Below, in pieces: positions 1,405-64,000 of a stretch of 64,000 nucleotides of DNA. The stretch comes from Hermatobates lingyangjiaoensis. Lineage: Eukaryota > Arthropoda > Insecta > Hemiptera > Hermatobatidae. Under the pieces are notes generated by a model, which was not told the origin of the DNA, searched no databases, and saw only the letters and a program-made list of their open reading frames with translations. Position 1 is the first letter of the stretch. Every line of letters starts with the position of its first letter. The position numbers and the translations under genes are program-made. The DNA lies in NCBI GenBank assembly GCA_026182355.1, contig JAPFBL010001928.1:4783001-4847000 (forward strand), given 5' to 3'.

Positions 1405-1560
1405 TGTAGTTCAATGTGCATAAAGACTCAAAAGAAAATTAAAAGCACGCAGTTACAGTCTCTAATTTTCGGTTTGAACCGTCTTCAGGAGAGATAAGAG
1501 AGGGAAACCAAGCGCACTGGTTCAGAGACGGTTGGAGACCAACAATGTTACCGCATGAGC
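1405..1560 (-). repeat. Solo arm of the 3.0-3.3 kb inverted repeat, with hammerhead-like motif
   Basis: This copy matches one arm of the inverted repeat at 3024-3330. On the minus strand, CTGAAGA (1482-1488) is followed by one base, a GGU/ACC hairpin and GAAA (1467-1470). UCUC upstream can pair with GAGA after a UUA site as stem I. All hammerhead core positions are present, with a minimal stem III. Confidence 0.55.
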
Positions 1561-3020
1561 GCCCGGTTACAGAGAATAAGGTAGACAGAAATCAATTTAT
1601 AATTAAATTAAATCAGTGGAATATGAAAAAAAAAAAGAAATAAATAAAAGAAAAAATTGATATATGAATAAAAGTTTGGACTAAGCTATGATAAAACTGA
1701 GAATATAAATAATAATATTAAATAAATAAAGTAATTAAATAATAAAGAATAACAAAGGGTATTTGATAATAACAAATCAAGTGCAAAGACAAGGGACTAA
1801 TTAAATGAAGCATTATCTCTTTTGATTAAGGTCAGGTGCACTGCGGGCACTTAACCAAATATGGGCATGTTCGGAGGGTCGTAGAGTGAGATCTTTGCGG
1901 GTCAGAATGTCGCAGAATTTGTCGCAGAATCTGTAACCTGTAGCACTCATTAAAGAGAAGACCGTGTCATCAATTTTTTGGAACAGAGAGCAACAAAAGA
2001 AAGTATGTACTAAATATATAAGAGAGGGGCTTACAACGTTTAGAACAAATAATTTAATTTTTAGTTAACGTAAAAATATGACTAAAAAGAAAACAAAACC
2101 AGCGCATTAAGGTAATGAAATCAGGTGAAAAAACATGGATTAACATGGAATATATAATACTTATACGCGTTTTTAATAATAAAAGACCTTGAATATATAT
2201 AATGTTCAATAACAGCCAATAAAAACAAGTACAAGATGAAACGAAATTATTATCGATTGGGTGATTATTTCTTAAAAAAGTGACATTCATTTAAGGTTTC
2301 TGCAGGCTTTCATACACAATACCAACACAAGGGGGGATTGTTAAATAAATGTTTCTGTTAAGGGAAAGTCAAAACATGTTTTATATGTATTTTGGAAGAG
2401 AAAACTCTTAAATGGTTTCATTCAATTACTCTGTTGCATGGTCAATAGCACTTCAACACTAAATTATTAACTTGTTAGATAGTAATTGATTGCTGTCTGC
2501 TGCCTCTTATATCTATTACTTCTTTTCTGGTCGACAAACCAAAAACCTTAACAAATCAAACTTGGTAATCTCTTGTATAACATCCTTGGCAAGGCCCCAA
2601 CTGTTTCATTTGTTCCACTCCTTTTCTCCCTGCATTTTCCAACCTTTGAAACTGCCTTTTACTTGTTTTTAAAAACATATTAACCCACCTTTTTACTCTA
2701 GTTTCAAACTTTGCCTCTGTCCTATTTATTTTATATACAACAACAATGTACTTAAGTTATTGATAGTAAAATACTTCTCCCATTACAGAAAATATGTAGC
2801 AACTCCATGATATTGTTACAAGGAACATATAAAACATTTACTACCGTAGTTTTCTATTCTTTAGGAGAAACAGGACAGGAATATGTAGTGCGAAAAATGT
2901 TTTGATGTTAGGAAATAGAAGCTTGTGTAGTGGGTTTATAAAGAACCCAATAAAATTCACTTATACACACTTTCATTTATATACATTTTTTCGTTGGAAA
3001 TACGATTCGAAACGAACAAG
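1561..3020. other. Non-coding stretch
   Basis: A+T-rich sequence without recognised genes or elements. Confidence 0.4.
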
Positions 3021-3023
3021 TAT

Positions 3024-3330
3024 AGTTCAATGTGCCGAAAGAAACATAGAGAAATTAAAAGCACACACTTACAGTCACTAATTTTTCGTTTGAACTTTCT
3101 TCAGGAGAGATAACAGAGGGAAACCAAGCGCACTGGTTCAGAGACGGTTGGAGACCCATCTCCAACGTTTGGAGACGGTTGGGGTTTCAACCGTTGGAGA
3201 TGGGTCTCCAACCGTCTCTGAACCAGTGCGCTTCCCTCTCTTACCTCTCCTGAAAACGGTTCAAACCAAAAATTAGAAACTGTAAGTGTGTGCTTTTAAT
3301 TTCTCTATGTTTCTTTCTGTACATTGAACT
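3024..3330. repeat. Inverted repeat (about 140-bp arms) with paired hammerhead-like motifs
   Basis: Left and right arms are imperfect reverse complements meeting near 3177; the outer ends share agttcaatg/cattgaact. The left arm (minus) has CTGAAGA with GAAA; the right arm (plus, about 3246) has the degraded core CTGAAAA. It is a head-to-head pair of the element seen singly at 1405-1560. Confidence 0.7.
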
Positions 3331-3465
3331 TTCATATGTATATATATATATATATAGAATTTGAAAGTTAAAACACTGAAAATATATATATTTAACTTTA
3401 CTGTACAAATTTGGTTATGAAAAATGAAATACAATAATCTGATTTCTATATTTCGATGGATTTAC

Positions 3466-3770
3466 ATGTTTTGAGGTCTACGAAGTCCCTTTTTGACGTT
3501 TTTTTCGATGATCTCTGTGTATGTGTGGGTGGCATCCAGAAGTCTGAGGGCATGTTGCTGTCCACACCATTAAATGGATATAATTCATATTATACATAAA
3601 AATGGGTATAATAGTGTAGATGTTTTGTAGTGTTTGGGGGGAATATTGCATGATAGGAAAGTCACTATATATATTAAAGTTACAACAAAGAAACTCAGGA
3701 AAGAGAATAACACTGACTATTCTCATGAGAACATTGTATATATAAGTAAAAATGAAGGTCATTCAATAAT
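3466..3770 (+). mobile_element. Truncated copy of the ACTTTACTATAAGTAAAGT DNA element
   Basis: The phrases around acatgttttgaggtc, ttcgatgat and gtgtgggtgg, and later the block ending gataggaaagtcac, match the longer copies at 40.76 and 42.57 kb. The palindromic terminus is missing. Confidence 0.5.
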
Positions 3771-3947
3771 TAAAGAAACAAAGTGGTCTGGAGAAAATTG
3801 ACTTTCCTGCTATTTGTTATAATCGCCATCAACAGTTATTCTTGATGGGACTCATTGCCCGAATGGGTTGCTATCTTTTTTATACCTGCAGTAGAGACAT
3901 CTTTCTTATGATGTTTGAGCCAATTTCCCACAAATTTTATGTCTACC

Positions 3948-4126
3948 CTCGGAAAGGACGTTAAGCCTTTAGTTCCTAGTCTGTATGAGGTCAGGTACTC
4001 GTTGAATTCTCTACTCTAATACACTTGAGCTAGGCAATATTTAGAATTCCCCAATGTATAATGCTCATAGTGTGGTATCGCAAAGTGTTCCCTTGTGGGA
4101 CTGCCTCTACAACTTAACCTAACCTA
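3948..4126 (+). mobile_element. 5'-truncated tRNA-derived SINE
   Basis: The body sequence and the (AACCT) tail match the full copies at 5564 and 11447, on the opposite strand. The tRNA-like head is missing, as expected from incomplete reverse transcription. Confidence 0.7.
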
Positions 4127-4129
4127 TGT

Positions 4130-5140
4130 TCCCTTTTTAATATATTGAATTCACTGAATTGAAAAGATAAGTTAAAAATAAAATAACAAAAACCTCCGCA
4201 AACACAATATAATTTGATAAAGCCATTAATCTGAGACAATCAAGCCAAGGCACATTTCCTGGCCTGGACTGTCAGGGTCAATATTCCAGGAGCAGCCCTC
4301 CTGGGGTAATACACTTTCCCCATGACCCCTTAACTACGAATTTATTGCATTTTCAGTAACAGTATTTCCTGATATTTTACTTGTTTCCTCTTTGCTTTAA
4401 TTAAAACTTAATGTTTTCTAATATTTCATTATTTTAATTTATATTCATTAAATCATATATTTAATTAACTGTTCGTTTATTAATTAAATTTCAGTTATTC
4501 TCTTTAAGATTTAAAAGATGTTTGTAAATTAGAAATTTTTCTCTTTTAATTAGAGATAAATCAAACAAGTAGACATAAAGTTTAAAATTCTGCATTGGTA
4601 TTAAAGTCGACAAACCAGTTGTCAAAGTTGAAAAATTAATATAATTTTTGTTAACTATGGCAAAAGTACAATTTTATAATATAATGGAAATCATACTAAT
4701 ATTTTATTTTGTAATAAAAAATATAAAATAGATATGTTGTTTTAATAAAGAGGTATTTCTTGTTTGAATTGTTTTGAATTTGAATAATTTAAGATCATAG
4801 AATTTCGAATGCAAAATACGTAATAATAAACTAATGCAGTAAATTTTTAATAACAAATTCTTACTGACTTGTGAATTGTCATATCTAAGTATAACAGTTT
4901 ATTATTGAACACTTCATATCTTTAAATCTGACATTAAGTGTTATCTTAGTGTTAGATACATCATCATTCTACCAATCTAGTTCAACATATGTTTACTATT
5001 AAGCTCTTGATGAAGCAGATTGATACGTATCATATTATTGATGAACGACTAGTCGCGATGTGAATAGAATTCATGTCTTGATATATGATAATTATCGTAT
5101 AATTTCATTAACAAATGAATAGGTCCGTTTGGACAAATTA
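4130..5140. other. Very A+T-rich non-coding stretch
   Basis: Nothing recognised. Confidence 0.4.
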
Positions 5141-5142
5141 TC

Positions 5143-5323
5143 AAACGATTTAAAGAAAAGAACACGTAAAACAACAATAAGAGAACAGCAACTCGATTTG
5201 TTGTTTACCAGCCGAGCAGAACTCATCATCTTCATCTTCTCCTTCTCCTGATGATGATGAGGTCGAAATAATATTGAAGTGAGTTCTGTGTTGTTTCTAC
5301 GTGTTCTTTCCTTTAAATCGTTT
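5143..5323 (+). repeat. Inverted-repeat element with intact hammerhead-like core
   Basis: Outer arms of about 33 bp (5143-5175 and 5290-5323) are reverse complements. Inside, on the plus strand, CTGATGA (5248-5254), one base, a GAU/GUC hairpin and GAAA (5265-5268) precede a short AU stem and a UU site. The downstream block UGAGUUCUG can pair with CAGAACUCA at 5217-5225 as distal stem I. Confidence 0.6.
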
Positions 5324-5563
5324 AATAAATATCATTAGAGTTATTTGATAACAACTGTCATGAGTTCAGTCCGATTAAATTATGTTTATTATATAACGCT
5401 TCATAATTCTTTCTTATTATTATTATTATCATTATTGAACAACATGCTCCACCAGAATACATTACATGCATTAAAAACTTCGATGTTAAGCAATAATTCT
5501 TATTAAATTATGATAATTAGCTTACAATAATAATAATCATGATAATATAAAGTAATAATACTG

Positions 5564-5880: not shown

Positions 5881-6049
5881 CAATAATACTGTAAAACAAT
5901 AATAATGTCATGATAATATAAAGTAATAACATGAAACAAAATAATAACTACACAATGATTACAATTAGACATAATGATGATAGGGCAATCGCAACAAGTC
6001 ATATTGCTCAGTACAGGCTCAATTAAGTACGTTGAAATATCTTTTTAGT

Positions 6050-6445: not shown

Positions 6446-7055
6446 CTATAAATCTGTTTGTAAAGCATCGATATAATTATTCTTCAAAATCAGCTTAGTT
6501 CAACATATGCTTGTATCGAATTCATCGTGTCTTAGTATCTGGTTATCAAGTATTGTTTTAGTGGTTATATAATTAATCAAAAGGAATGTTTAAAAAGACG
6601 ACACAATGTAAACGTGATGCTATTCATGTGACAATGTCACTTGATTTTATTTGAAAGCCAGAAGAGGCTAAGGCTCCAGCTGACGTCAAGCCCACGTGCC
6701 CTGATGACAGGATCAATGTTTACATCTCCCAGCCAGAACAATCACCACTTTGAATACAGCCGAGGTCAACCCTTTGCCCATTAGCTTCACATCCTCTGCA
6801 ATTAAAACAATTTCAAACTCCCAACTTTAATTAACTCACAACAATATTAACTTTCAATAACTAACTTCTATTAACTTTAGAAAGTTCTCAAATTCTTTAA
6901 GTACTCTCTGTATAATGTTAACTTTTAACTAATATCTATTTATTTTTATAAATAAATATATACATTTTTAATGCTTTGTATAATATCATTAAAAAAAAAG
7001 TATTTTTAGAAATCATATTTTACTATTTACATATTTTACTAGGAAAAAGACATAG

Positions 7056-7112
7056 AATGAACTGACACTTCTGTTTTCGACTGTGGTCGTCTTCAGGAAA
7101 AGAAGTAGTGGC
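7056..7112 (-). ncRNA. Solo hammerhead-ribozyme-like motif
   Basis: On the minus strand, CTGAAGA (7090-7096), one base, a GAC-CACA-GUC hairpin and GAAA (7075-7078) are followed by AC and GAAGUG. CUUC upstream can pair with GAAG. The UH site is weak (ACA), so it may be a decayed copy. Confidence 0.4.
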
Positions 7113-7339
7113 AGTAAGTGACAGAAGAGTAGCCAGGCTAAATCAATCAGGGTTACCATCAAGCGATCATGTAAAAAAAGATAATCTTTAATTTAAAGAA
7201 ACAATTTGTATTGTAACAATGTTGTATGTATTTCCCATATATCCAATTAGCAATATATATGTAGTAATAATATGTAAAAGATGTATAATAGAAATTTTAT
7301 TTTAATAGTAGTAGTAATAGATAAAAGACATATTAGTAA

Positions 7340-9115: not shown

Positions 9116-9119
9116 TAAA

Positions 9120-10308
9120 AAAAGTACATGAAATCCAAAGAACTCAGTTCCACTGTGGTACTGACGAAGACCAATTGTTAGAAATATTTTAATTTTATTT
9201 CTTATTGTAATTTAGATATCATTTATATGCCTTTATATAATTAAAAATTACACAAAATAAAACATATTGCTTACTGTGACATACAGAGTTGCTAGATTTA
9301 TATCGTAATTTTTATTGTTTATTAATCCCTTAGATGTTTGAAGGCAAGAGGTAAATTTATATTCCTCTAAATTGTTACCATTAGAAATAGTATTTTTTTT
9401 AAATTAATTATTGTTTAAACATTTTGTTTGTTTACTTATGTGTAGGAATAAGTTATTAATCTTAGTTCTAGTTAATATTCTCTAAATAGTTTAGTCATCT
9501 GTGACGTGAATAAACTACAGCACTCAGTTTTGAGGCAACAACTGCAAATAAAACAGTAGTTTGTTTGATTTTGTTATCAGGTTCTCTTATCACAGATGTT
9601 CTGTACATGTTTTATGTCACTCTCTCTCTCTCTTCTGGTCGAGCTCCAAGCCTATTTTGATTGTAGTTTAGTTTCACCATTTATTAGTGCATGGAAAGAT
9701 TTGCAATTATTATATTCAACTGTAAGTATGTAATTATTTTTTCTGATATTTTAATCTCAAATAATTATAATTATTTCTTTTCTTTTAAGATTTTTAGGTC
9801 TTTTTTTTTCATTTGGTTGTGTGTGACATTAGTATCAGGAGCCTGATGACACCTGGTGAAATTTTCATCGTATAAGGAACACGTATAATACCTAACTATA
9901 ACATATATCCGGAAATGAACTTATTTTAAACAATAAAACATAAATATTACATAGCATGAGTGATATCTTCAATATCAATGCAAATCAACAAAAGTCACAT
10001 CATTTCCCCCCAAATGATACCTCTTGTCAGTGCACTAATTCAAAACAGTTATCGTTAACCCCTTAAGCACATAATCCCCAACAACTTAACATTTTAGAGG
10101 ACTTTCTTAGAAGTAATAGTAATTTTAGAAAAACATTTTAAAGTACTTGTTATAAAATCATATTTTTTATAATTGATAAAAAGACAAGAGCTGAATTAAT
10201 CACTGAATTAACTGATAACCTATGTGCTTAGATAGTCGAAAAAGTAAACTTTCCTTAATTCTTGATTTTTTTTCGTAATTTAAAATTTGATTTGAAATAT
10301 TATGATTT
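9120..10308. other. Non-coding stretch upstream of exon 1
   Basis: No gene. A weak hammerhead-like motif (CTGACGA ... GAAA) is at 9154-9180 and another (CTGATGA, ACC-U-GGU, GAAA) at 9842-9862. There is a (TC)n run near 9622. Any promoter or untranslated exon of the ECE-like gene would be expected here or farther left, but I could not identify one. Confidence 0.4.
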
Positions 10309-10462
10309 AATATTAAAATTATAGTAATCCTTCTTACCTCGTACCCTGCTGCTGAAGCTCTCGGACCGGTTTCGGGCGTTGAAGATGGGTGACGCCCGAA
10401 ACCGGTCCGAGAGCTTCAGCAGCAGGGTACGAGGTAAGACGGATTACTATAATTTTAATATT
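10309..10462. repeat. 71-bp-arm inverted repeat next to exon 1
   Basis: Arms 10309-10379 and 10392-10462 are near-perfect reverse complements around a 12-bp spacer. The plus strand holds TTGAAGA, a GGG/CCC hairpin and GAAACCGGUCC, a hammerhead-like layout with C3 changed to U. The same unit occurs singly at 38051 and, much enlarged, in the 55.3-kb palindrome. Confidence 0.75.
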
Positions 10463-10684
10463 AATAATACTAACCTCTGTGGTAATGACGAAATGCATGA
10501 ATTATGATTTAAATTTAGTTCGATAATACATTCCTGATTATGATTAAAAATTATTATAAGTTAGTCATTTTTAAAATAAAAACTGAATAAAATTCAGTGC
10601 TATTATAATCTTCACCCTTTGCTCATGGGATATTTTTGAATTCTGATGAAGATTCCAGATTCTGATGAAGATTTATGATTTCAG

Positions 10685-13700: not shown

Positions 13701-16700
13701 GTGATTAAATTGAGCCATTATTATATTTTATTTTAACAACATATCAATATTAGTAATCATTATTTATTCGTGGTAGATATTAATTTATTGGATGCTAATT
13801 ATCCCGGCAAGCTATATATTAGTTTGCAGACTGATTTTCATGTAAGTAGGTACCCTTAAAGAGAGGGTGTTCCTCTATAAATCAGACCTTGTTAGTCACT
13901 AACAAGATCGATTTCTGCCCTAAATGCGGCCTTCAAGTTGATTAACTGATATATTATCAGTACGCCTAACCAATCGACTTTCAAGCATTAATCCTTATTA
14001 ACTATATTTAACCATTTTAAAATGTTCGTTTAAATATTTTAAATTTTTAAATTCAAATAACATTCGATTAACAGATTGTTTATCGGAATATCAAATTGTT
14101 TCTTTGGTCCATTAAATCAATTTATTTAATTAAAAATCAAACAATATTTTTGAAATTTTTTTCACTAATTTGTGCCAGTGATCTGAAAGGTTCATTTGCT
14201 TGTGCGATCAAATTCATTACTTCTGCCTCCTTTGGGGGACTTGCGTCTTATGTCCTTCAAAACACCTGTAATTGATAGATCCTATTTTCTTAAGAGAAAT
14301 TCAATTAGCTCTGAATCCCTTTAAAAGTGTAATAATTTATAGCTCCATAAATTAAAAGTGTAATACAATATGGCTCCATAAATCATTAAAACCTAGAGTC
14401 AACGTGTCAGAGTTGAGTGATTCAAACTCAACTCTGCCCCACAAAGAAGTGGTGGATTTTTCTCAAAAAAAAATCTGATTAAATCAAAAAATAAAAAGAA
14501 AAAATGAAGATTAAAATGCTCCAGTTCATCTAATGACAATAGCATAGAATTGGTTGAGAAAAATTTGATTAACCCTACCAGTCCAAACGAGATAGAAAAG
14601 TGTTTAATGTTTAAAATATGTTACAAATGCAAAATATTTAATTTACTATTCTAACATGAATTCTTGTTGTTCAGAAAATGCCTCCTAGGATTGACCTCTG
14701 CGTAAGTACCTACTTGAGAATTATTTGTATTTATACTTATTCATATATGTATTTATGCAGGTGTAATCATGTCGGTAGTAATTTTATTTATATAGATTTA
14801 TTATTGTAGAGTTCAAAGAAAATGTTAACTGCTTCTATATGTATAAGTGTAGAAAATTATCATCAGACACTTAGAACGGCGTAAAATATTTAATTTCTTT
14901 ATTCATGATGTTTTTGTAAACAGCAAACGAATTTTCAATCTTCTTTTACTAATGAGTTAGTGAATACTTGGGCTTAGAAAGAAAAATATCGTTCTCGGGC
15001 AGATAAAGGTAACGAGTGGATTTATTTAAAACATTTTTAATGGGACTACAAAACATAAAAACATAAGGAATTATGTCATAATAAAGAATTTGAATTAATC
15101 AGTAATCATTAATTATTAACTAACTTCATTTTTTGATTGTTGTAAGCGATTCAAAAAATCATCAAACAGAATTACAAGAAGGTGTTTGCCCATATAGTAA
15201 TGTAGTAATTTGCCCATGTAGTAATTTTCTCTTGCCTTCTTTGATAATAGAAAAGTTAAAAAAAAATATTTTCATATCTGAACTGATCATTCTAAAAGAA
15301 TTACAGAGTAATCTTAGTAACCACCTCTAACTTATTATATGCTGATTTAAAATCTTTAAACTTGTGTGTTTAATGAAGAAGGAATTAGTTTTTTAAATGT
15401 GCAGTTGTGTCAATATTTATACTTTTTAAGGAAAGAAAGGATTAATGCCACCGTAAAGGCAGCACATAGTATCAATGAAAACTTCAAATTAATTTTTCTG
15501 AAGCATGATTTCAGATATTGTAGAAGATTATCAAAGGAAAATATTGGAAATACTATATATATATATTAAATAGAATAAGTTTTGTCTCTTAACTATAGAA
15601 GTGACATGCTAATTCAAATAGCATTTGTTCAGGTGTTTTAAATTAATTGAGTTTTGGCTGTATGTTTCTGTTATTGAAGTATATATCGTCTTATAAAAAT
15701 AAGCTTTTTCGTTGGTGTCATTGTTTTAGTGTATGTGCATGTTTATGCTGACAGCTGTTCTCAATTTTCCTTTCCTGCATTCATTTCATTAATAAGTAAT
15801 TAATGTAGTATTTCACTGTTTTTCAATTTATAAATATTATAATTTTGTAAGTTTACTCATTCCTAGACCATAATATTTTCATTTGTATTATTTTATATCT
15901 TTCAACTTTGCATCTTTTGATACTTGTATAATTCTAACGTAGTGCAATCACTCATTATGTGGTAATTTTTTTGTATGGTAAAAAGTTAATGAAATGGTCT
16001 CCACGTATAAAAATTTTAATGGTATAAACTTCCTTCTCGAGGAAGAACTTCATGAGGAAGAACACTACGTGTTCGAAACACGTTGTTTATACCATTAAAA
16101 TTTTTATATGTGGAGACCATTTCATTAAATTTCTACCCTACTTGTATATAACTGTTAATTGTTAAGATTTCTTAAATTTTCTTCTTTGTGTAGGACCATG
16201 AAAACTGTTTTAAGTAAAACCTAGAAGTTTGAATTTAATATTCCACTAACGAAAGTTTGATTTAAACCAGGATAACTAAACAAGTGTTGATATACTTATA
16301 TTTCATTCTACATGTAGGATTAAAATATCATATCGGGTTCAGTTTTCAGTTTTCCAAGTTTTAATCAAATTTCTAAAGCTGACGTTTCGATTTTATTTAA
16401 AATTATATACAATAGTAATAGATTCAGATATAAACTAAAGCAAAAAGCATACATGAAATGAATGCACTTACAATCTTTAATCAAAAAATTTTTAAACAGT
16501 TCTTTCTAGACCTGTTATACATGGAACAATTTAAATAACATAACTTCAGTAGATATCAGAATTACTGCCCCCATAAAATGGAAAGATTGTATTTTCAAAT
16601 TTGGTATTCTTCAGTCACAAATTATATAAACCATCATTTTGTGTTCACTTGTAACTTTTTAATGGTACATTAAAAAATAAGATTAATTTGAAGAAAATTT

Positions 16701-18475: not shown

Positions 18476-18529
<54 letters not shown>

Positions 18530-21500: not shown

Positions 21501-24500
21501 ATGATTTTTATTGCATATTACTGTATTCAATCACACATTGAATTGATTAAATGAACTTAGCAATACTGAGTTCTGTAACCCTATAGATATAATATATAAA
21601 AAGATTTCACATAAACACGTGAAACAACAATCAATGATCAAACCACTGATCAATGATCAATTTTATCGATGAATACCATGTGCGAAGTCTTGTTTTCCCA
21701 TTTCATATTGTGGTTTGATCATAGATATAATGTATATATATATATATTGATAAAAGTATCGACCGTGGAATAGAAACAAAACTAAAGTTTATCGGGACTC
21801 GGTCAGTTCTTCAGGTTCTTATTAAACTCTCATTGCCAACGTTTCGGTCTTTATTTAAATCCTTTTTCATAGGCAGAAGTATACATTTTGAAACCGAAAA
21901 ACTAAATATTATATTACAAATTATTTTACAAAGAAAAATAATTTTCCTTCTAGTTTCCTAACCAACCGTGATATTGTGATATTATACTTTTTCAGTCTAA
22001 AAATTTAAAAATATCGGTCTATTATTGTCCTTTTGAAAAAATGATGAACTATAATAACAGTTCCTAATTAATATCCAAGGAATGATATTAATCTATAAAA
22101 GTAGTTATTTCAAATAATTTTGAAATAGTCATTCTTGGTTAAAACCCATATAACTGTTATGACTACCGATATATCATTGCCTAAGTGATTTCTTGATTTC
22201 AGTTACTTACACTACGTTATGAAGTGATTTGTAATGGTAATTGACTTGCGAAGTTTGATGATATCTGATTACACTCAAAGAATGTACAGCCTCAATTTTA
22301 AATATAACGCAGAACCGCCATCATTTATCATCCTTAATTCATTCTTTTAAAAGAATTACAATTTAATATTAAAATTAAAAATTCGCTGTTTTAAATTATC
22401 AAAAATGAACTGAAACAAGCTAAGTCACATACGGACATTTTCGGACACAGATAGTAGTGATTTTAGCACCGTACATCAACAATTATCTATAAGCTGAAGG
22501 TCAAGATGTTTTAATCTCCAATTGAGTATATTTTTGACGATAAAATCATTCCTAATGAATCGTAGCTTCCTTCAATTAATAATGAATCCGAGGATTACAC
22601 AACATCAATTAAATCGTAAATAGTTCTGCCTTTATTCCTTCAATCAATGGTATTCAACATAAACTGTTTTCTGCTTTAAGCGACTTATAATGATCTATTA
22701 ATATATAATTGGGAAGTTTAATTTTCTTTGAAACCTTTAGTGACCAATTTCAATGGAGTGAACTTCCCATGAGTCTTTACCATATATAACCTTTAACTTT
22801 CATTTCTCTTTGGTCAACCAGTTAACAATTATTTTGAATTTACTAAACAACGAAATAATACCATAATTCAATATTATTTGATAATTATTTAATTTAATCT
22901 CTATATATAAAGTTTGTGAGTTTGTTTGTTTGTTTGTTCACCCATTTCCCGTGGAGATAGAGACATGAAATTAAATATATATTATATATTACCTGAATAA
23001 TGTTAAATAAAAGAAAATTATCGCTATATTCCCAAAATTGGAAATAGGGTAGCTCACTGGCTTGCGGGCTCGCCGATGACAGTAGTTCAAATGTATTATA
23101 TATAAATGTAACAATTTTTTTTTAATTTAATATTTGTTTAATATAAACACTGGTAATAAACTAAAGGCATGGAGCCAGGGTAGCCCACTGGCTTGCGTGC
23201 TCACCGATGACAGTAGTACAAATATATTAAAAATAAATGTAACAAAAATTTTTTTTGAATTTAAAATTTGAATAATATAAACAATGGTAATAAAGTAAAG
23301 GTATTGATCCATGGTAGCCAGTCGCTTGTATGCTCAATGTATGCAATGTATGCTCATTATATTGCATATGTAAAAATGTATTACATATATTTTTGTAAAA
23401 AAAAATTAATTTAAAATTTCCGAAATATAAACATTGGTAATAAAATTAAGGCATGGAGCCAGAGTAACCTAGAGGATTGCGTGCTCGCTGATGACAATAG
23501 TGCAAATGCATTATAAATAAATTCAACAAATATATAATACACTATTACATTAGAGGTTAAAAATGAATAATTTTAGAAACTAACTTGAACAAAAATGTCA
23601 GATAAAATATGAATGTTCTGAGGTAATAATATAAAGACACATTCCTTTCATTAATTTAATTTTATGTTAGGTAATTAAACTGAATATTTCAGTTTACAAG
23701 TCTTGTTTGTTTTAGATATATTTTATTGTGTATATAACCTGAATTGATGTTTTATTTATTTATATGGTAAAGTAAATGATTTTTTTTACTTTTAAATCAT
23801 TTTTATTTTGCTAAATATACTTACTTCAAATATTAAATAGTATATATCTTGAATCATGTTAAGAATGCTATATCAAAAGCTTGGGCCATATAAGAATCTG
23901 TTTCCGTGCCTTAATAAAAAGAAACAACAATTAAAATTATCCCTTTCAATCATGTTCAGTGAATTAATTTCAATACCTATTGTTACAATTTCTGAGTGAC
24001 ACAAAGGATCACGGGTAGTATAGTATTATATATTTTGAAAAATGAAATAATAAAAAGATTCTGTATATAAATCTATATAATAAAGGTTAGGCTGATTTGA
24101 AAATAACGGTTATGTATTTATTTCCTTGCAATACCAAAATACCAAACCCTGAGGATGTCTACAATTATAGACGAAACGTTGGCTTAAATGTGTTATATTG
24201 TTTGATGCTAGACTAAACCTCGATAAAAAAAAAGAGTAAAAAATATATAAATCATTTCATAAAAATACTATTGTTTTTTCAAAATTCTTAAATACTAAAG
24301 AGCGTTGCATATATTTTGTATTAACTTCTCCATTTATCAGAATTACAGAATTTTCCACCTAGTCGTCTTCTTTTTCTTGATGGATTTTCTTTACACTTCT
24401 CCAGGAGTTAAAAGTTACATTTCTGATTTATCATCACAGTGTACTTTCAAAATTGTTCTTTATAGATCATTGGTTGAAAACTAGTTAACTAAACTTATAA

Positions 24501-31586: not shown

Positions 31587-31624
<38 letters not shown>

Positions 31625-31717
31625 ACTAGAATTTCGGCATTGCGGTCGAAATAATATTGAAAAGTGAGTCTTTTGTTATGTTTCAGTCTATGTACGAGTA
31701 TCACTGTTTATTTTAAG

Positions 31718-31750
<33 letters not shown>

Positions 31751-32075
31751 GAATTTAAAAAAGAACACATAGAAAGGAAACCACTGAACTCACTACTATA
31801 TTTCGATGTCCTCGTCTTCAGGAAAAGAAGTGAATCGCTCCAAAGGCTGATAACGACTCTATATATATATATATATGATCAAACCACAATAAGAAATGGG
31901 AAAACAAGACTAAGATCTTTCAACCGTAACAAGCGGTCTTCATCAGAGTCAAAAACCCAACTGACAGTTGGACTCTGACGAAGACCGCTTGTTACGGTTG
32001 AAAGATCTTAGTCTTGTTTTCCCATTTATTATTGTGGTTTGATCATTGATTGTTATTTCATGTGTTTATGTGAAA

Positions 32076-32120
<45 letters not shown>

Positions 32121-53100: not shown

Positions 53101-56100
53101 AAAAAAAAAATGAGGTTTAGTTGTCCTTCAGAGAGCTCAGTGTTTGAAACAGGTTCTTGTAAGACACATAAAGTTAACTTGTATCAAAATATTAAAGGTC
53201 TTGAAGAAAGAAGATTTCCTCCCCAAAATGAACTGTATTAAGTAAGAAGCATTCTGAAGATCAACAATATGAGTGAATAATGGCCCTTTCCGAATATCTT
53301 CAAAGCGTTGGGATCCGCCTTGAAGAAGGTCGAATCCTTTGCAGCTTGATTGAGTTGCACCTGGATGGAAGAGCACGTGGGAGTTGTGATTCAACACAGA
53401 GTTTTCTATTCACTTTTATGCTCCTACCTTGTTCACCTTCATGCTGTTCCTGACACCAGTAGAGGCAATACTGAATATTCAACTTGTCAATATAAACAAA
53501 TAAATATGCTACCTATAGATATTGATGCTATATCCTTAGTTAACATTGAGAAAGGAGGAGGGGGGATCATTGTTTGTCACTAATCATGAAGGCAGTTTTT
53601 TCTTCATCTCTTCAAGTAATATTATTGAAAGATTTCCTGTTTTACAGCTTTAAGTCGTTTCCAAAGTATATTCATATCTTAAAATAGGTGATCAGCTCTT
53701 TATAAATGGCGGAAGGTAAATGAAATGAAGTTTTTTCTTAAACATATGCCAATGCAATATTGTTCATATTTTAAAAATGCATAGATATCAATGATGCTAT
53801 AGTTAACATGAAAACGAGATTATACTATTCAATTAGTATAATCTAGTTTTCATGTATTGATAACATATAATAGGTTTCTAAACACCTGAAATGAAAATCA
53901 GCATTTATAGCACAGTGAGAAATTCTGAAATATGTAATGGTCCTCGTCAGAGTGACAATTTGAATAAACTTGCGACTCTGACTCTGACGAGAGGCTCATA
54001 ACTGTTATTTGTAAGAGCCAGTTATACATGACTCATGACAGTCAGTAAATATTTTCTTCCATTCATTTCTCATCAAGCCAGCGTGTTGCTGAAATTATTA
54101 AGAATAGTGACTGTTAATTTATTTTGTATATACATCTGTCGATTTTTTAATTGAAAATACATATATTTAATATACAATGATGTAATTCAAGTATCAGTGA
54201 TTAAACTATTTATCAAAGTATGTCTTTATTTAGGATTTTAAACAACTACTTAGTGTGGCAGATGGTCAAGACGCTGACTAGTTACTTGAGCAAGCCCTTC
54301 CGAGATGCTTATAAAGTCTTAAGGAAGGCTTTGGTCGGCAGCGAAGGTGGAGAGGAAATTTGGCGTTATTGTGTCAGTGACACAAATAATTTTCTTGGCT
54401 TTGCTGTCGGTGCAATGTACGTCAGAGAAGCATTCAATCGAACTGCCAAAGCTAAGGTATATTCTCTCAGTTTTAAATAATACCATATAATATTATATTT
54501 TGAGAAAAATACGTTTGAATTATACAAAAATACGATCAAAATTATATATCATAATAGTAAATTTTCATTACATTTTTATAGGAAACAGTTTTTGGATGGT
54601 TGTAACATTATCAAATGTTACAATATCTTCAAGTTTCTTATCTCTTCCAATCCTTTGTTTACATTATGCCCCTAAAGGTAATCATAAATTAATTCACCAG
54701 AAAATATTATGTAGTATTTTATTCATTTAAAATTAATGAATTTTCATATAAATTTAATACAAAATTATAAATCCTCTTAAATTTAAAAAAACACTCAAGC
54801 AAATGTAGTTATATATTTAATTGAACATTGAAACTTATAGAAAGTATAAAAAAAATCGTTTTTCTGTGCCAAAAACAATTCTGAATACTTGTTTTAAACC
54901 GATAATGAATATTTATTTTATCACTCTATCAATATATAATTTTTCAGGCTGAAGAAATGATAACGAATATCCGAACAGCTTTCAAAGAAAATTTAAGAAA
55001 GTTAAGTTGGATGGAAGAAGAAAGTGTTCTTTTAGCAGAAAAAAAAGCTGATGCTATTTCTGACATGATAGGTAGTGTATCATGTGTTATTTTGATTTTA
55101 TATATTCGTGTGTTTGTAACATTAATTGAAGATGTAAATATTGGGGTGAAGCAAATATGAATATTGTATTTTTTATTGGTATTCCAAATATAATGTCTCA
55201 AGCACTTTTATTATTTGCTTTAGCTGTATAAGATCGTATATGAATTGAGAAGTAAAGCAAAATATAAACTCTTGTTTCTGTGCTTGTATCGTAAATTTTA
55301 GCCTTCATTGTTGTTTTAGGAACGAAATGTGTGTCCCATTGTTTAATATATTGTAGCGACGCGAGGGACAACCCTGCTCACCGGTTATCACCTGCTTTCT
55401 ATTATTGGACTTGTCGTTGTTTTTTATCTTAATTTTGTAAAGTGAGAGATTCTATTAAAGAACTCTACAGTATGATTTATATTAGAAATAGTTAAAACCG
55501 TCATACCTCGTAAGATGATCTTGGAGTCGTTGGAGCGCTTTCGGACGTTGTCCATCTTCGATCGCAACAAACCTACTGAGCTGTTATATAGCTGGTTGGT
55601 TATCTGTCAAGTCCACTGCTATCCTGATATTATTATTTTTGATTTTATTTTCAAAATAATAATATCAGGATAGCAGTGGACTTGACAGATAACCAACCAG
55701 CTATATAACAGCTCAGTAGGTTTGTTGCGATCGAAGATGGACAACGTCCGAAAGCGCTCCAACGACTCCAAGATCATCTTACGAGGTATGACGGTTTTAA
55801 CTATTTCTAATATAAATCATACTGTAGAGTTCTTTAATAGAATCTCTCACTTTACAAAATTAAGATAAAAAACAACGACAAGTCCAATAATAGAAAGCAG
55901 GTGATAACCGGTGAGCAGGGTTGTCCCTCGCGTCGCTACAATATCACCTATTTTGTTGATTCTACATCATGCATTCTAGATTGAATATTAGGTTAGGTTA
56001 GTTAGCAGTAGCAGTCCAATAAGAGAACGCACAGAGGCCAAGCATTGGCCCTTTGTGATACCACACAATGAATATTCTATATTGGGAGTCCCAAAATTTG

Positions 56101-59100
56101 CCTAACTCAAGTGCATTTAGAGTAGGGATCTATAACGAGTACCTGACATTGTACAGGCTCAGAACTGACAGCTGTACGTCCTCTCTGAGGGAAGACGTCC
56201 TCAGATTTATTAATCGATTATAAATCAGTTCGTGAATAAACCGAGGGCTTGAGTGGGTATTGAACCCAGAGGATATCTACCAGTCCAGAGGATGACACGT
56301 TGCTACATGCCTAACCTGATCTCCAAAAAATTAAACTCACTCTAGTTTGAATCCTTAAATTTAAACTTCATGAGCGAAGGTAGTTCTGGCATCTTAATTC
56401 AAAGATTCTTCTTTCATCATGAAGTTACAGAATAATGAAAGTAACTAGTTTCACCAAACTAGATTACACTTTACATTATATAACTAATTTTAAAAATTCT
56501 GAGGTAAAATGGATAAACCAACAAAAGTCTCCACATAAATGAAGTTTTATTCAACGCGTTTCGAACACTTTGTTTTCATCATCAGGAAGACATAATAATA
56601 CAAATTATATCTAATCAGTTACAAAATTAGTGTGAAATAATAAAATTCAATTAAGAGAATTCAAGACATACCCAAGGGCAGATGAATAAAACTTCATTTG
56701 TGTGGAGACTTCTGTTGGTTTATCCATTTTACCTCGATATAATTTGTATTTTAGTGTCTTCCTGATGATGAACACAAAGTGTTCGAAACGCGTTGAATAA
56801 AACTTCATTTGTGTGGAGACTTTTGTTGGTTTATCCATTTTACCTCAGAATGAGTAAATACCACACAATTACGAATTGCACAACTAATGATTTAATTTTA
56901 AAAAGTCAAATACAATCTATTTTTAATATTTAAGGTATTTAATATTGTATTTAAAACTTTTTTTATTTATCTAACCCAAAATAAAAAAACCTCCTAGTTG
57001 GAATATTATATACCTACCAAAAAGAATAGCCTTTAGTATTTTATTGAGAAAAGGTCTATTGTTTATCATATCTGATATGCTATGTTTGTAGCTTAATTTG
57101 TTTGAATAACTATTACATAATATACATTTTGTTAAATACAATCTATTTAATTTAAATTCAGTGAGTTCAACACCAAAATTATTGCCATCGTACATTGAAG
57201 AAAATAAAAATTGGTTAATAGATATTATTTTACGACTAGCTTTATTTTCTTGCAAACAAATAAAGTAAAAACGTTAACATATCACAATAAAAAAATATTT
57301 TGGTCTCAATCTTATAAAGTTAGTTGTTAAAATTAAAAAAGCTAACTTAATTTTTGATGCATGTTGACCATTTTTATTACCATCTTGTATTAAATAAACT
57401 GTTTTATGTCTGCTTAATTTCTTTGTTTTTTTTTTTTAAGAAAAAAACTGCTTCTTACACATATAAATAAATTTACTCGTTTTTAAAAAATGATCATTTT
57501 GCGCCATTGTTTATGAAATTGTTTTCAACATATACTGTTTCAGGTTTTCCTGATTATATACTGGATCCAAGGCAGTTAGATAACAAATATAAAGACCTAC
57601 AAGTGAGTGAAAACAAATATTTTCTTAACTTTATCAATGCAAACAAATATATGCTTAAAGAAAATTTGAAAAAATTGGGCCAACCTGTAAACAAAACAAG
57701 GTTAGTAATTCTATACAGTGTTGTGATATGATATTTTAATTAAATGTTTGCTTCTTATTTTTTAATGTTTTCATTCTATGTATGTATGAAAATGAAATGT
57801 ATGTAAATGTTTATGTACATTATATACAGTGGAGGTTACATCATTTAAATAGAATGATGCCTGAAAATGTTCTGGACAATTGTTTTGATAATTAATAGTA
57901 AACATGGTTGAAACATTGTATTTTATTTTGAAGAAAACTAAAGATGTGATATATTTATTGTTGGAATAACAATCTCTATATCTCTGAGGATATTTTTTTT
58001 ATTCAGATGGACTATGTCTCCTCCCACTGTCAATGCATACTATACTCCTACAAAAAATCAGATCGCCTTGCCAGCTGGAATATTCCAAGCTCCCTTCTAT
58101 GACCCCAATCGATTGGAAGTGCTAAATTACGGAGCTATGGGGGTAGTCATGGGTCATGAACTAACGCATGCTTTTGATGACCAAGGTATCATTTAAATTC
58201 AATTTTATTTATTAACTTTTCGAACGACATTTGTCGTTTAATAACAAATTATTAAATTTAATAACAAAATTATAATTTGATAACAAATTATTGTAATTGT
58301 TTACAGCTACTTTAAAGTATTATCAGTTAAACTTATTTGGAGGATGTGAACTTCATTTCGACAGGTAATCGTTAAAGTCACAGTCTGATTGTGAACAAAA
58401 TGAATAAAGGAATTTGTTATTCTTCTTGAAAAACAATATTATTAACTTATTAAATAGTTGAACAATATTTCAATTATTAAGGGCTTTGAAGCCTATCAAG
58501 ATTAATGCATAGTTTAAATATTGTCGTGTAAATCTTGAAACCTTTCTTCATCTAAGTGACTTTCAGAAATATCATCAAAAGCAATATGTTTTAACAATAG
58601 GGAAGTTAAGAAACTTCCTAAATATTGCAGTAGTTCTAACATTGAGTAAGCGACGGTAGGTTAGGAATGGCAAACATGTAAGAATAAATGATTTCGTCAA
58701 TTAAGCATGGAAATAATTGCTATAGCCAATTACTATTTGATTGAAATGATGCCAATTTTGACAGTTTGTTATCGGTAACAAACGATCTTTACATCTGCTA
58801 CATAGAATGTGGAGTTTCTTTCAAAATTGGTTAAGGTAGCCTGCCAGTATATTTTGGTTGCTTGATTTACATTAGATTGGGTTGCAATGGCACGGGAGAA
58901 GACAGACAGACTAAAGGTCCTGTTGTGATACCACACAATGAACGTTCTTCATTGGGAGCCCTAAACTTTGCCTAATTTAAAATAGCGATCTTTAACGAGT
59001 ACTGACATCATACAGGCTCAAGATCCTCTTTATGGGACGACCTGCTCAGATTTTATTTTCCATCTACCGCATAAATAAAACGAGGACCAGATTAGGTATC

Positions 59101-62100
59101 GAACCTAAGATCTACCATTTCAGAGGCTAGCACCTAAGCCACTTAAAGTCCAAACTTGGCTACATTCCTTACATTTTGATTCGCATCAAAGACGTCTCTT
59201 CTACATTGAAGAGAAGTATCTGTTATTGTTACCCTCTCTTTGCTACCCCGGTGACCCTATGATTTGCTCTCATTGCATTTTTCAAATTCTAATTTTGCAT
59301 TGCTGCAGTGCATTGAAGTGGACATAAAATTGATAGATAATAATCAAATATTTTGACTCAATTTTTATGTTGTAATACTAATAAGCCGACGTTACTAGGT
59401 ATGAATTTAAGCCATTAACCAGTATGTCGATAGTTAATTCTGGTACCAGTGAGAACCCAATGTACAACCATTTATTATTATTTGTTAATTTAAAGTGGTC
59501 GCAAAGTTTCTTAGTGAAGTTGCAGACTTGAAGAATATAATTAGGAATAGGTAGCGTCATGAACATCCACACTATCCATAATCAATGATCAAACCACAAT
59601 AAGAAAATGGGAAAGCAAGACTAAGATCTTTCAACCGTAACAAGCGGTCTTCGTCAGAGTCAAAAACTGGGTCTTCGTCAGAGTCAAAAACCCAACTGAA
59701 GATCAGTTGGGTTTTTGACTCTGACGAAGACCGCTTGTTACGGTTGAAAGATCTTAGTCTTGCTTTCCCATTTTCTTATTGTGGTTTGATCATTGATTGT
59801 TATTTCACGTGTTTATGTGAAATCTTACTATCCATAATAATTAAAACTTTAATGAGTTCATTAAACTAAAAAAAATTACAATTGTGCAGTAAATTTGCAT
59901 CTATGATTTACTTTATGCAAGAGATGTGTAAGTTTTAATTAATCGTATTAATTCCATTTCGAGTATTTTTTAAAAAAAAATATTTATGAAAAAAAGTAGC
60001 TTAATTTAATAGTTTAATTTGTTTCATGTATAAGGCTAGCCTTAATTAAAATATTAAAATTAAAATTAAAAAAATAAAATATTAATTTTGTATTAATATT
60101 AGGCTAGCCTTTACAGATTCTTATATTATTGTTTTCAGGAAGGGAATATGATGAAAAAGGAAACCTTCACCAATGGTGGAATAACATGACTATTGAAAAA
60201 TTCAAAAAACAAGCCGACTGCATTGAAAAACAGTATTCGAAATTTGAACACAATGGCAGACATGTCAATGGGAAACAGACATTAGGTATTGTTTTTCCTA
60301 GTTATCACACCCGTTAACATAAATTCCAAGTCACAAAGATTGAAAATAATTAAGTTTTAAAATATAGTTAGGTCAAGTAACTCTAATTAATTTTGTTTCT
60401 ACACTTTTTTTTCTATTAAACTATTATCTTTCTATTAAACCTATCTCATACACAGTAGTATTCTGATTAAGGCATTCTTTGCTATAACAAAATTATGTGA
60501 TCATGAAAAAAAACTTGATTTTGACTGATATACATGCTTTGATGACTCCTGAGTTTATTTTTAATATTTTTTGGATGATTCTTGGATGTGTTAGATGAGT
60601 AGTAGGATATGTATCCAAAAAATTGTAATCACTAACAATTTCCACCATTAAATAATCTTAATGAAATTTTCATTTCTTTGTATGCAATATATATATGAAT
60701 TAAATACCACAATAAACAATATAAATTAATTAATATTATGCTCTAAGGCCTTTGATTAACATCATCAGAGAGCTAAATGAAACAACCAAAAAAAAAAAAA
60801 AAAACATAATAACAAGTTAACCTTGTTAAAAGAAATGAAAATTTCATTAAGATTATTTAATGGTGAGAATTGTTAGTGATTAAAATTTTTTGGATACATA
60901 TCCAAAAAAGATTGAAGTCAAGACTTCAATCAGCCAGGTTAACTTGTTATTATGTTTTTTTTTTGTTTGTTGTTTCATTTAGCTCTCTGATGATATTGTG
61001 ACGAAAGGCCTTAGAGCATTTGAATTAATTTATATTGTTTATTGTGGTATTTAATTCATATATTATATCGAGTTATTGTTTGATTATTAATTTATATACA
61101 TATATATTTGTTCAATGTCTTTTTATCTCGAACACGTATATGGAACACTTATTCTCTTCATCGAGGACGCTGAACCAAACCCTGAAAAATAGTATTTATT
61201 TATTGCGATACTTTATGAAGTATATTTATATATAGTTTATTGTGTGTAGATGTGCCTTGTTATTCTTTGACAATGTTGAATGTAAGAAATGCTACTTAAG
61301 TTCTTTATACCGAAACAGTATTAATTTCTCCCTTGTTCTGGTTATTCCAGAGATCTGGCATTTTTCATTCATTATATATATTCTTATGTGTCTAGCCTCT
61401 TATAACTATTCCATGAATTTTGGATTATTACAAAAGGCAATATAACGCTGAAGGGACAAATATTAAGTCCTCAGGCAGTCATAAGGATTTCTTTACCTTA
61501 ATGTTATTATTAGAAGAAATTATTATTATTAGAAATTATTAGAAGCAAATATTTTTGAGATTAATATAAATAAATATTTTATATTTATTATAAAATATAA
61601 TAAATTTAGTATTTCAAGATACTACTTTCAAAAAATTACAAATCTGTCCCATAATTTGAAAAAAAAATGTACTATACAAAACTTAAAAATAATTATGTAC
61701 TACATAAATTGATAACCCATTTGATAACATTCTTTTAATTCTTTCATTAAATTTAGGGATTTATTAATATATTTTAATGAGTATTACAACTTATTAGTTG
61801 TGGTTTTTTGCCTAATTTTATTATCAGCAATTTCATATCCTAAATCATAAGATTTAAATGAATATTAGTTTACCTTTTCATTATTAAATCATAATCAATC
61901 AATGGAAAAATACCAACCAATGTAAGAAGTCAGTTATATTTTAATTATAATTGGCAAATTGTAATACCAATATTAAAAAAATCAATTAATTAAAATGATT
62001 TGTCATTATTTCTTCTGGTAATGGTTGTACTCACTGTAAAGTTGAGTTTTGGACTACACCAGGTTTTTTTAACTCAGTAGAATGTCAGAAACTTATTGGT

Positions 62101-62490: not shown

Positions 62491-62689
62491 GTAATATCTT
62501 ACATACGTAAAGTTGTATTTATCATAAAAATGAAGTATATTCAGTATTGTGTTGATTCAGTATCGAGGCAAAACCATACATAAAACCTTCTTCTTCTTCT
62601 TCTGCTTATCTTCTCCATCTTCATTTAGCCAGCAGCCACTCTTAGCTGCTGAGCCATTTAGCAACTAATATTAATAATTAATATATATT

Positions 62690-62905
62690 AATCTTCTTCC
62701 CTCGGAGAGAGTGTTAAGCCGTCGGCCCTGAGTCTATACTATGTCAAGTACTTGTTAAAGATCCCTGCTCGAAATATACTTGAGTTAAGCAAAATTTAGA
62801 ACTCCCAAAGTAGAATGTTCATTATGATATATGACAAAGGGTTAATGTTTGGTTTATGTGTGTTTTCTTTCGTGAGACTGCCACTACAAGCTAACCTAAC
62901 TTCGT
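62690..62905 (+). mobile_element. 5'-truncated SINE with short AACCT tail, intron 14
   Basis: The family blocks cttgttaaagatccct, atacttgagttaagcaaa and tgccac plus taacctaact are on the plus strand; the tRNA-like head is absent. Confidence 0.7.
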
Positions 62906-63502
62906 AATGCGAAGTTGTTGGACAGATAAGGAGCCTTATGGTGTGTTAGGACAGAACTGGAAATGTATAAGTGGAGATTGCTATACTGCAGCAGGTACAG
63001 TGGACAGGTGAAGGTGTTTTTACAAGTCGATGGGAGAGTATGTAGAAATGGACTTTGAACTTTGACGAGGTCGCACAAACCAGGAGCTTGGAAACTCGTT
63101 TTTTTTTAAAGCAAAAATATACTTTCTTTTTAAGTCTATATACTTATCTTTTTTTAAGTATCTAGTATATAAAACTGCTCGAGATTCAAATTGAACAGTA
63201 TGTTAAAGTTTTTAAAACTTTCCTTCATATAAATAAAAATGCCACAATGTGAAAAACAAGTGAATTTATCATCAAAGTATTCATCACCATAATAAATGAT
63301 GCATGCTCTTGAGTCTTTTGAGATGAAAAGGTGGTTCATCTCACCTTTTCAAAGGTCTTCTAGAGTCACAAACAAAGAGTACGACGAGGGCCGTAACTAA
63401 TGGAATGGTCTTTTGTTCCTGGTGTTTATTGTATATATATATATATATATTATATATATATATATACACAATTAAAAGAAACGGTTCAGCGGACTTTTTT
63501 AC

Positions 63503-63779
63503 AATAAAATAAAAAACGAAGGAAACACACAGAAAGACACAGACATAACTCACATCGATATTTCGACAATCGTCGTCATCAGGAGGTGCGAAGAGCGAAG
63601 AGCGAAGAGTCCCGCAGGAAGACAGGGCGGTACTCAGAGTAGTACAGAGTACCGCCCTGTCTTCCTGCGGGACTCTTCGCTCTTCGCTCTTCGCACCTCC
63701 TGATGACGACGATTGTCGAAATATCGATGTGAGTTATGTCTGTGTCTTTCTGTGTGTTTCCTTCGTTTTTTATTTTATT
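63503..63779. repeat. Palindrome with 133-bp arms and paired hammerhead-like cores
   Basis: Arms 63503-63635 and 63647-63779 read as exact complements around an 11-bp spacer. Each arm carries CTGATGA, one base, GAC-GAUU-GUC, GAAA, UAUC and GAUGUG; CACCUC upstream pairs with GAUGUG except for one C-U mismatch. (AT)n tracts flank it on both sides. Confidence 0.78.
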
Positions 63780-63801
63780 ATATATATATATATTATATGG
63801 T

Positions 63802-63935
63802 CCAGCAGACTTTTAAATAAAAACGAATTAAAAAGAAGGTAGCACACAGATATACAAAGGAATAATTTACTTCTATATTTCGACCATCGTCGTCATCAGG
63901 AGGTGAAGAGTCCAGCAGGAAGGTAGACGCTCTGG
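63802..63935 (-). ncRNA. Third, diverged copy of the 63.5-kb unit
   Basis: Minus-strand CTGATGA, one base, GACGAUGGUC, GAAA, UAUA, GAAGUA: same order as the palindrome arms, with an 8-fold repeat of gaagagc-like sequence shortened. Confidence 0.55.
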
Positions 63936-63937
63936 AT

Positions 63938-64000
63938 CAGTTGGTTTTTTGACCCTGACGAAGACCGCTTGTTACGGTGGAAAGATCTTAGTCTTTTTTT
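63938..64000 (+). ncRNA. Hammerhead-like unit at the window edge
   Basis: CTGACGA, the GACCG/CGGUG helix and GGAAAGAUCUU as in the 31.9- and 59.6-kb elements; the sequence runs off the edge. Confidence 0.5.

Follow-up and report, generated by a model that had tools for sequence, protein, structure and literature searches.

We analysed a 64,000-nt stretch of the Hermatobates lingyangjiaoensis genome (assembly GCA_026182355.1, contig JAPFBL010001928.1, positions 4,783,001 to 4,847,000; hereafter the window, with position 1 its first letter) that carries dispersed repeats built around a minimal type I hammerhead ribozyme layout. With good confidence, and going by sequence, we assign these repeats to terminal, pseudo-long-terminal-repeat (pLTR)-like remnants of Penelope-like elements (PLEs), which mostly lie head-to-head, have one extra base after core position A9 and encode an RNA predicted to cut itself as a dimer. 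They are likely units that lack an open reading frame (ORF) or truncated terminal units, not complete PLEs. Elements of this kind are known; the possible cleavage footprints at their insertion ends go further.

A hammerhead core with one extra base

The motif was searched on both strands of the window as CTGANGA plus its continuation. A strict descriptor, limited to Watson-Crick pairs and compared with order-1 and order-2 Markov simulations of the window, returned 14 matches when one extra base was placed between A9 and stem II (null mean 0.27; 14 reached in 0 of 100 simulations), and 2, 2 and 1 matches in the 64 kb with 0, 2 and 3 extra bases. At a spacing of 4 it returned six (null 0.35), five of them cores of a single family (family B below; 5248, 63700, 63899, 63582 and 31821) re-counted in another register, and the sixth at 26530. 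With G-U pairs accepted and one core mismatch tolerated, a second descriptor that demanded three or more stem II pairs, H17 and a palindrome at stem III also gave 14 matches with one extra base (null mean 0.62 over 60 simulations, maximum 3), and 0, 0, 2 and 1 with 0, 2, 3 and 4. The layout of CUGANGA, one base, stem II, GAAA, stem III and UH is real and lies far beyond chance expectation; 9843 and 12904, among the 14 strict matches, look chance-like. Simulated sequence, a control of the kind asked for in the original prediction from the letters of the window, stayed far below the observed count under both descriptors.

That prediction had claimed the motif at about a dozen places, and all of them hold it: 1488(-), 5248(+), 7096(-), 24149(+), 31975(+), 32501(+), 56762(+), 59721(+)/59657(-), 60987(+), 63700(+)/63582(-) and 63955(+). 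The cut sites it placed after 32009 and 32527 follow from the layout. It had also described the repeats as unrelated, which is not so throughout: some eight families, A to H, can be distinguished among the copies, and D takes in relatives at 16.0 and 11.86 kb (Table 1). By our own count the window holds 28 recognisable cores, decayed ones included. The type I order CUGANGA ... GAAA ... UH is present in families A, B, C, D, F and H. It is weaker in the B copy at 7096, where U16.1 is lost, in family G, which departs at C3/U4 (U for C at position 3 in 10379 and 38057; UC for CU in 55731), and in family E, where stem II is nearly absent.

With one spacer base, the first three stem II positions form 26 of 27 pairs across nine representatives (A, B, C, D, F, three G and H), against 14, 11 and 9 when the spacer is set to 0, 2 and 3 in the same sequences. 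Several pair types occur at positions 2 and 3, and 26 pairs were reached once when the 3' strands were re-dealt 20000 times; adding E and the 16.0 kb unit gives 31 of 33. Because a MAFFT alignment of ten cores put stem II in the wrong place, pairs were scored by script and not through a covariance model. The claim of exactly one extra base fails in two decayed cores, 3104(-) and 11860(-), where two spacer bases give the best stem II pairing. The base itself varies by family (A, C or T). Because it is present in every classifiable family, it is probably a feature of the whole PLE group rather than of one subfamily. A viroid hammerhead described by De la Pena & Flores reportedly also has an added core nucleotide, said to lie after A9, so the extra base would not be unique to this lineage; that motif belongs to a plant viroid, not to a retroelement.

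A self-complementary block of 6 nt makes up stem III in A (AGATCT), C and E (AGGCCT), D (ACGCGT) and G (ACCGGT, AGCGCT); in B (AUAU), F and H the block is only 4 nt long. A 6-nt palindrome follows 55 of the 1138 GAA-A sites in the window (cores included), yet one is present in each of families A, C, D, E and G. Stem I has 4-5 bp in A, C, E, F and 38057; B, D, H, 10379 and the 16.0 kb unit show a stem I that is weak, broken or far off. Dimer cofolding of 12 cores gave an intermolecular stem III in C, D, E and 38057.

CUGA and UGAUGA resemble the boxes of small nucleolar RNAs (snoRNAs). We ruled out a C/D-box snoRNA reading by reasoning, without a dedicated snoRNA test, from the stem II and palindromic block at fixed positions. 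Rfam gave 38 matches, mostly to microRNA precursors; all scored below the gathering scores, with the best on inverted repeats, and we discarded them as palindrome artefacts.

Inverted pairs, tails and target duplications

Around the cores lies an anatomy that goes beyond the original prediction, namely pairing, tails and target duplications. Comparison of each family with the window showed that copies sit pairwise on opposite strands, with their 5' ends together on the inside and their 3' ends outward. Same-family neighbours no more than 250 bp apart form 18 pairs (14 head-to-head, two direct and two tail-to-tail) among 42 arms; the arms were curated by hand, and the orientation counts depend on the grouping chosen. 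A binomial probability for these orientations would treat strands as independent, and no weight is placed on it. The cores at 53950(-)/53984(+) and 9161(+), which look like decayed relatives, were left out of the counts, and 11860 and its partner entered the orientation census only. Pairs are labelled here by family and position (for example A59).

In family A, each of the seven arms extending to the 5' end starts no more than a few bases from CAGTTGGG, which lies about 50-54 nt before the predicted cut and is preceded by dissimilar sequence. The references used for arm mapping were cut at chosen points, and starts at the first reference base (e.g. -50 in A) are not measured ends. The 3' ends of family A fall into two classes, near +37 to +45 and at +70. 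Five pairs (A21.6, A31.9, A59, F3.0 and B63.6) join one short arm to one that is 30-40 nt longer; in A32.3, which lies within a composite with C, both arms extend to +70. Target duplications are exact over 12 bp at A59 and match at 15 of 16 bp at A21.6, with a weaker 8-bp match at F3.0. Eleven pairs were checked for them, leaving aside those at 32.3, 31.5 and 11.86 kb. A direct repeat that includes the core occurs only in D, as a partial tandem with a period of 111 nt and a minimal stem III.

C adjoins A units at two places with a common spacer, as if an A-C composite had been copied as one. The region 31113-32657 holds A, B and C units nested in TA repeats. At 53950(-)/53984(+), two CTGACGAG cores stand head-to-head with differing downstream sequences; they may represent either a second two-family pair or A relatives that have decayed.

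Table 1. Repeat units, cores and junctions in the window (coordinates are window positions).
Feature	Position	Strand	Details
A59 model insertion	59571..59838		left arm 59580-59696 (-), right arm about 59700-59829 (+), head-to-head
A59 target duplication, ACTATCCATAAT	59571-59582 and 59827-59838		few bases ambiguous with arms
A core: CTGACGA, A, GACCGCTTGTTACGGTT, GAA, AGATCT, T	59721..59755	+	predicted cut after 59755; stem I GACT/AGTC
A59 partner core, left arm	59623..59657	-	head-to-head
A31.9 head-to-head pair in TA repeat	31875..32079		cores 31946(-), 31975(+); predicted cut after 32009; tail on right arm, none on left
A21.6 pair	21583..21736		left arm (-) 21601-21646, tailed; right arm (+) from 21686, tailless; target duplication 15/16
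A arm beginning at predicted cut site (N1.1)	21686..21726	+	compared with 31975 copy
A32.3 head-to-head pair	32211..32445		decayed cores; inside A-C composite
C unit, core 32501: CTGACGA, C, GTGATAGAC, GAA, AGGCCT, C	32464..32600	+	predicted cut after 32527; sits in long inverted repeat (extended stem I)
Second C copy	31229..31361	-	core 31325, GAAA decayed to GATA
Third C copy	32128..32203	-	core 32157; 3' end no more than 3 nt from predicted cut site
D56	56489..56860		left arm (-) 56489-56611 with core 56585; full unit 56736-56860 with core 56762, predicted cut after 56794
D direct partial tandem	56683-56735	+	starts at predicted cut site, one base ambiguous (56683/56684)
D-related palindromic unit, 16.0 kb	15987..16126		left arm (-) starts at cut site set by analogy with D; in decayed core 16052, A replaces C3 and stem III is imperfect
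B63.6 head-to-head pair	63465..63785		cores 63582(-), 63700(+); tail on left arm only
Two-family junction	63799..64000		B (-, core 63899) 5'-to-5' with A (+, core 63955) at 63933/63934
B5.2 pair	5138..5340		core 5248(+); left arm from +13
Single B copy	6990..7150	-	core 7096, decayed, without U16.1
B-related nest	31472..31860		pair 31472(-)/31517(+), 124-bp duplicate 31641(+), B copy core 31821(-)
E60 pair	60687..61075		cores 60768(-), 60987(+); stem I GCTCT/AGAGC, stem III AGGCCT, poor stem II
F3.0 head-to-head pair	2985..3330		both cores decayed (3104(-) and its partner); left arm alone tailed; flanks match over 8 bp, ACTTTCAT
Single F copy	1407..1548	-	core 1488
H single core: CTGAGGA, T, GTCTACAATTATAGAC, GAA, ACGT, T	24149..24180	+	
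G55	55348..55944		292-nt perfect inverted arms (identical), 13-nt spacer
G55 variant core: TCGAAGA, T, GGACAACGTCC, GAA, AGCGCT, C	55731		
G10 pair	10301..10471		variant core 10379 (C3 to U)
G single copy	38057..38140	+	variant core 38057, stem I GCTC/GAGC

Identity of the elements

The composition controls, the covariation of stem II and the self-complementary stem III across families with differing flanks bear out the type I minimal-hammerhead layout that had been proposed, and the dispersed copies, defined ends, tails and target duplications agree with the further proposal that the repeats are mobile units. PLEs and retrozymes had both been named as candidates; PLE anatomy fits better, and the retrozyme side is left with one 111-nt partial tandem.

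Several observations weigh against the assignment to PLE remnants with a hammerhead layout. Cores have decayed in B (7096), E, G, 3104, 11860 and 16052, and an Rfam scan of the whole window reported no hammerhead family at E≤10; a miss may be expected for a minimal stem III with an insertion, as one candidate reason. In the cofolding, the other 8 of the 12 cores, family A among them, favoured other minima (an intermolecular stem II in family A, part of stem III only in 10379). No target duplication was convincing at D56, E60, G55, G10 or the 16.0 and 5.2 kb pairs, and at A31.9 and B63.6 the surrounding TA repeats make the comparison uninformative. In a domain scan of positions 1-60000 (15-kb pieces, six stop-masked frames, with 60001-64000 outside the scan) no reverse transcriptase (RT) or GIY-YIG domain was found at E≤0.01; the PLE assignment thus rests on anatomy, not on protein, and with no ORF for RT and GIY-YIG the units would be at most non-autonomous or truncated derivatives.

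Two other classes of element deserve comparison. Foldback or miniature inverted-repeat (MITE) DNA transposons with long terminal inverted repeats, in which the hammerhead layout would have no RNA function, could account for short, AT-rich inverted-repeat units, two of them with flanking duplications, in DNA that holds no mobile-element coding domain above cut-off. We consider them highly improbable: in five pairs one outer end has an entire tail that the other lacks and arm lengths are unequal, D forms a partial direct tandem, different families stand head-to-head, stem II covaries across families with differing flanks, and no transposase Pfam match at E≤0.01 was obtained in 1-60000. Metazoan non-LTR retrozymes, which form circular RNAs and carry canonical type I hammerheads, are hardly less improbable; they would share the type I order and could explain the D tandem with its 111-nt period and its start at the cut site. 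In PMC7229834 and PMC7761336, retrozymes are described as ~300-bp tandem repeats giving circles of ~170-400 nt with canonical hammerheads, and PLEs as carriers of minimal variants. The pairs here are inverted and tailed with a minimal stem III, and among retrozyme-type direct tandems the window showed only the 111-nt partial one and no ~300-bp monomers. Pattern scans of viral contigs for families D and A gave no match; a generic PLE pattern matched 10 contigs, a number whose chance level is uncontrolled and which we did not use.

If the units are PLE remnants, a PLE protein encoded elsewhere would bind the RNA and nick both strands of an AT-rich site. Reverse transcription would start internally on the RNA, at either of two sites. 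Both broken DNA ends would act as primers, each for its own cDNA, and joining of the cDNAs at their 5' ends would give inverted pairs with their tails outward. The self-complementary stem III (AGAUCU, AGGCCU, ACGCGU, ACCGGU or AGCGCU in the RNA) would allow a double hammerhead to form between two transcripts or between two arms, and some templates would probably be cleaved before reverse transcription.

Arms that start at the predicted cut site

Eleven arms have a determinable, non-canonical 5' start, and four of these begin no more than one base from N1.1, the base that follows the predicted scissile bond: A 21686 at 0, D 56683/56684 at -1/0, the left arm of the 16.0 kb unit at 0, and the C left arm. 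The remaining seven start at +25, -29, +8, +13, -14, -18 and -16. N1.1 as set for family B is about 3 nt off under a 4-nt stem III, and no B arm is among the cut-site starts. The A arm agrees with the 31975 copy at 23 of 25 positions downstream of the bond and at 5 of 20 upstream; the corresponding identities are 25/25 and 6/20 for D, and 24/25 and 4/20 for the 16.0 kb arm. Because three arms begin at the predicted scissile bond, the starts suggest that some templates were cleaved by the ribozyme before reverse transcription.

These starts might equally well reflect coincidence, or stalling of the polymerase at stem I/III, to which we give an even chance. The numbers are small and the choice was post hoc. 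The cut site of the 16.0 kb unit was set by analogy with D on a decayed core, and the C junction shows an ungapped identity of just 10 of 25 over 25 nt, which we put down to a 2-nt bulge. Both starts can be restated as an extended stem I, that is, as saying no more than that stem I exists, which leaves two of nine as the cleanest cases; the chance values of 0.0002 (4 of 11) and 0.028 (2 of 9) assume a uniform 100-nt range chosen post hoc. All of this speaks against cleavage of the templates. In its favour, the A21.6 and D56 arms are direct copies in which homology is lost exactly at the bond, and polymerase stalling at stem I would presumably leave an end a few bases further downstream. In the study of a purified full-length PLE protein from Anolis (PMC11167929), reads neither started nor ended at the hammerhead cut site, whereas three arms begin at the predicted site here, and hammerhead mutants had no effect on insertion in vitro; both results also count against cleaved templates.

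A junction between two families and the origin of the pairs

At 63933/63934 a family B unit and a family A unit meet by their 5' ends, a single case whose right end lies beyond the window. The junction fits two templates extended from two DNA ends, not one self-primed template, although a nested insertion is a possible explanation.

Self-priming (snap-back) on one template would make inverted pairs without two RNAs being reverse-transcribed from two DNA ends. In PMC3846280 it is the favoured model for rotifer Penelope elements, with the choice between models left open. Perfect or near-perfect arms around centres of 11-13 nt at 55.6 kb (292/292), 63.6 kb and 10.3 kb fit it well, as do the palindromic 5' ends. 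The F3 arms resemble each other more than they do the 1.5 kb copy and the G55 arms are identical, so two templates are not needed for every pair, which tells against a two-template origin throughout; the D56 arms have only distant comparators. We nevertheless hold self-priming to be the unlikely account on balance, as 5' ends differ within pairs (+25 against 0 in A21.6; +13 on the left of B5.2 against an entire core on its right), families B and A meet at one junction, and the left arm of A31.9 shares 93% identity with the 59.7 kb copy but 87% with its own partner (flank columns included). The arms of A31.9 and A32.3 are likewise no closer to one another than to the A copy at 59.7 kb.

Joining the cut-site starts to the two-family junction, we tentatively read the insertions as footprints: a predicted dimeric ribozyme would cut mini-Penelope RNAs, the 3' product would be reverse-transcribed to its ribozyme-made 5' end, and insertions would be stitched from two RNAs, sometimes of different families. 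The starts and the junction are few cases, and we regard this joint reading as possible rather than probable.

Host gene and other features

Many of the repeats sit in the introns of an M13 metallopeptidase gene (endothelin-converting-enzyme/neprilysin-like) whose exons span about 25 kb (37520-62580, +), and others flank it. Among the best 120 matches listed for the joined exon translations, the top one reaches 76% over 62%, Ranatra chinensis stands at 77% over 62%, and both Halyomorpha halys and Nezara viridula stand at 58% across the full query; by these matches the host is probably a true bug. M13 peptidase domains were the only ones above threshold in 1-60000. A weak match to a Pif1 2B domain at about 38930-38990 (-) (E 0.0023, below the Pfam cut-off) is possibly a Helitron remnant.

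Repeat copies at 5765-5909, 11661-11800 and 17544-17654 carry GCTAGCTCAGTGGTTACGTGCTC ... GGTTCAATCC-like boxes, and one of the copies lies beside the decayed core 11860. This repeat looks tRNA-derived, like a short interspersed element (SINE); ARAGORN found no tRNA. A 51-bp tandem repeat at 24925-25238 (6.2 copies, 99% matches) is open in one frame. The translation of 34651-34860 (+) has GGQPNPGPLG close to its end, a motif known from some long interspersed element (LINE) open reading frames.

Discussion

Minimal hammerheads in PLEs have reportedly been on record since 2014 (work by Cervera & De la Pena 2014 and by Lunse, Weinberg & Breaker), and these too reportedly have the type I order and a short self-complementary stem III. 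The units here may differ from them in the single base between A9 and stem II in the best copies of each classifiable family, and in copies tied to the endpoints of inverted pairs. PLE minimal hammerheads are likewise dispersed, often without adjacent coding sequence, and are expected to act as dimers (reviewed in PMC7761336). That review places most animal minimal type I hammerheads dispersed in non-coding DNA and calls their in vivo activity and role a mystery.

A close anatomical parallel is the endonuclease (EN)-containing Penelope of Adineta vaga. PMC3846280 describes inverted pLTRs, of which head-to-head is the commonest inverted form, with a 31-bp tail on one of them, target duplications of 8-10 bp, a palindrome at the 5' junction and partial direct tandems. 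The units here share the head-to-head order, the single tail, the target duplication, the junction palindrome and the partial tandem; they differ in that no RT or GIY-YIG domain was found between inverted units and in one two-family junction. The Poseidon PLE of Anolis carolinensis (PMC11167929) likewise has a minimal hammerhead near the start of the unit, and two internal RT start sites whose interval is the tail. It cuts and extends both target strands at AT-rich DNA, which is demonstrated there and would apply by extension here. Metazoan non-LTR retrozymes (PMC7229834) are also non-autonomous, carry a type I hammerhead and are suspected of using PLE machinery; they differ in their canonical hammerheads, longer direct tandems and circular RNA intermediates. 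An open literature search, with the papers on PLE hammerhead consensus sequences outside it, found no report of cut-site insertion ends, of two-family inverted pairs or of this extra base in PLE hammerheads.

The two-family junction matters because it separates self-priming from two-template models of PLE insertion. Were the joint footprint reading true, truncation points would map the cut site and the ribozymes would gain a role in making the template. Should arm starts at the scissile bond turn up repeatedly across the genome, old insertions would hold a record of cleavage by the ribozyme, whose role could then be studied by counting in any genome with many short PLE copies.

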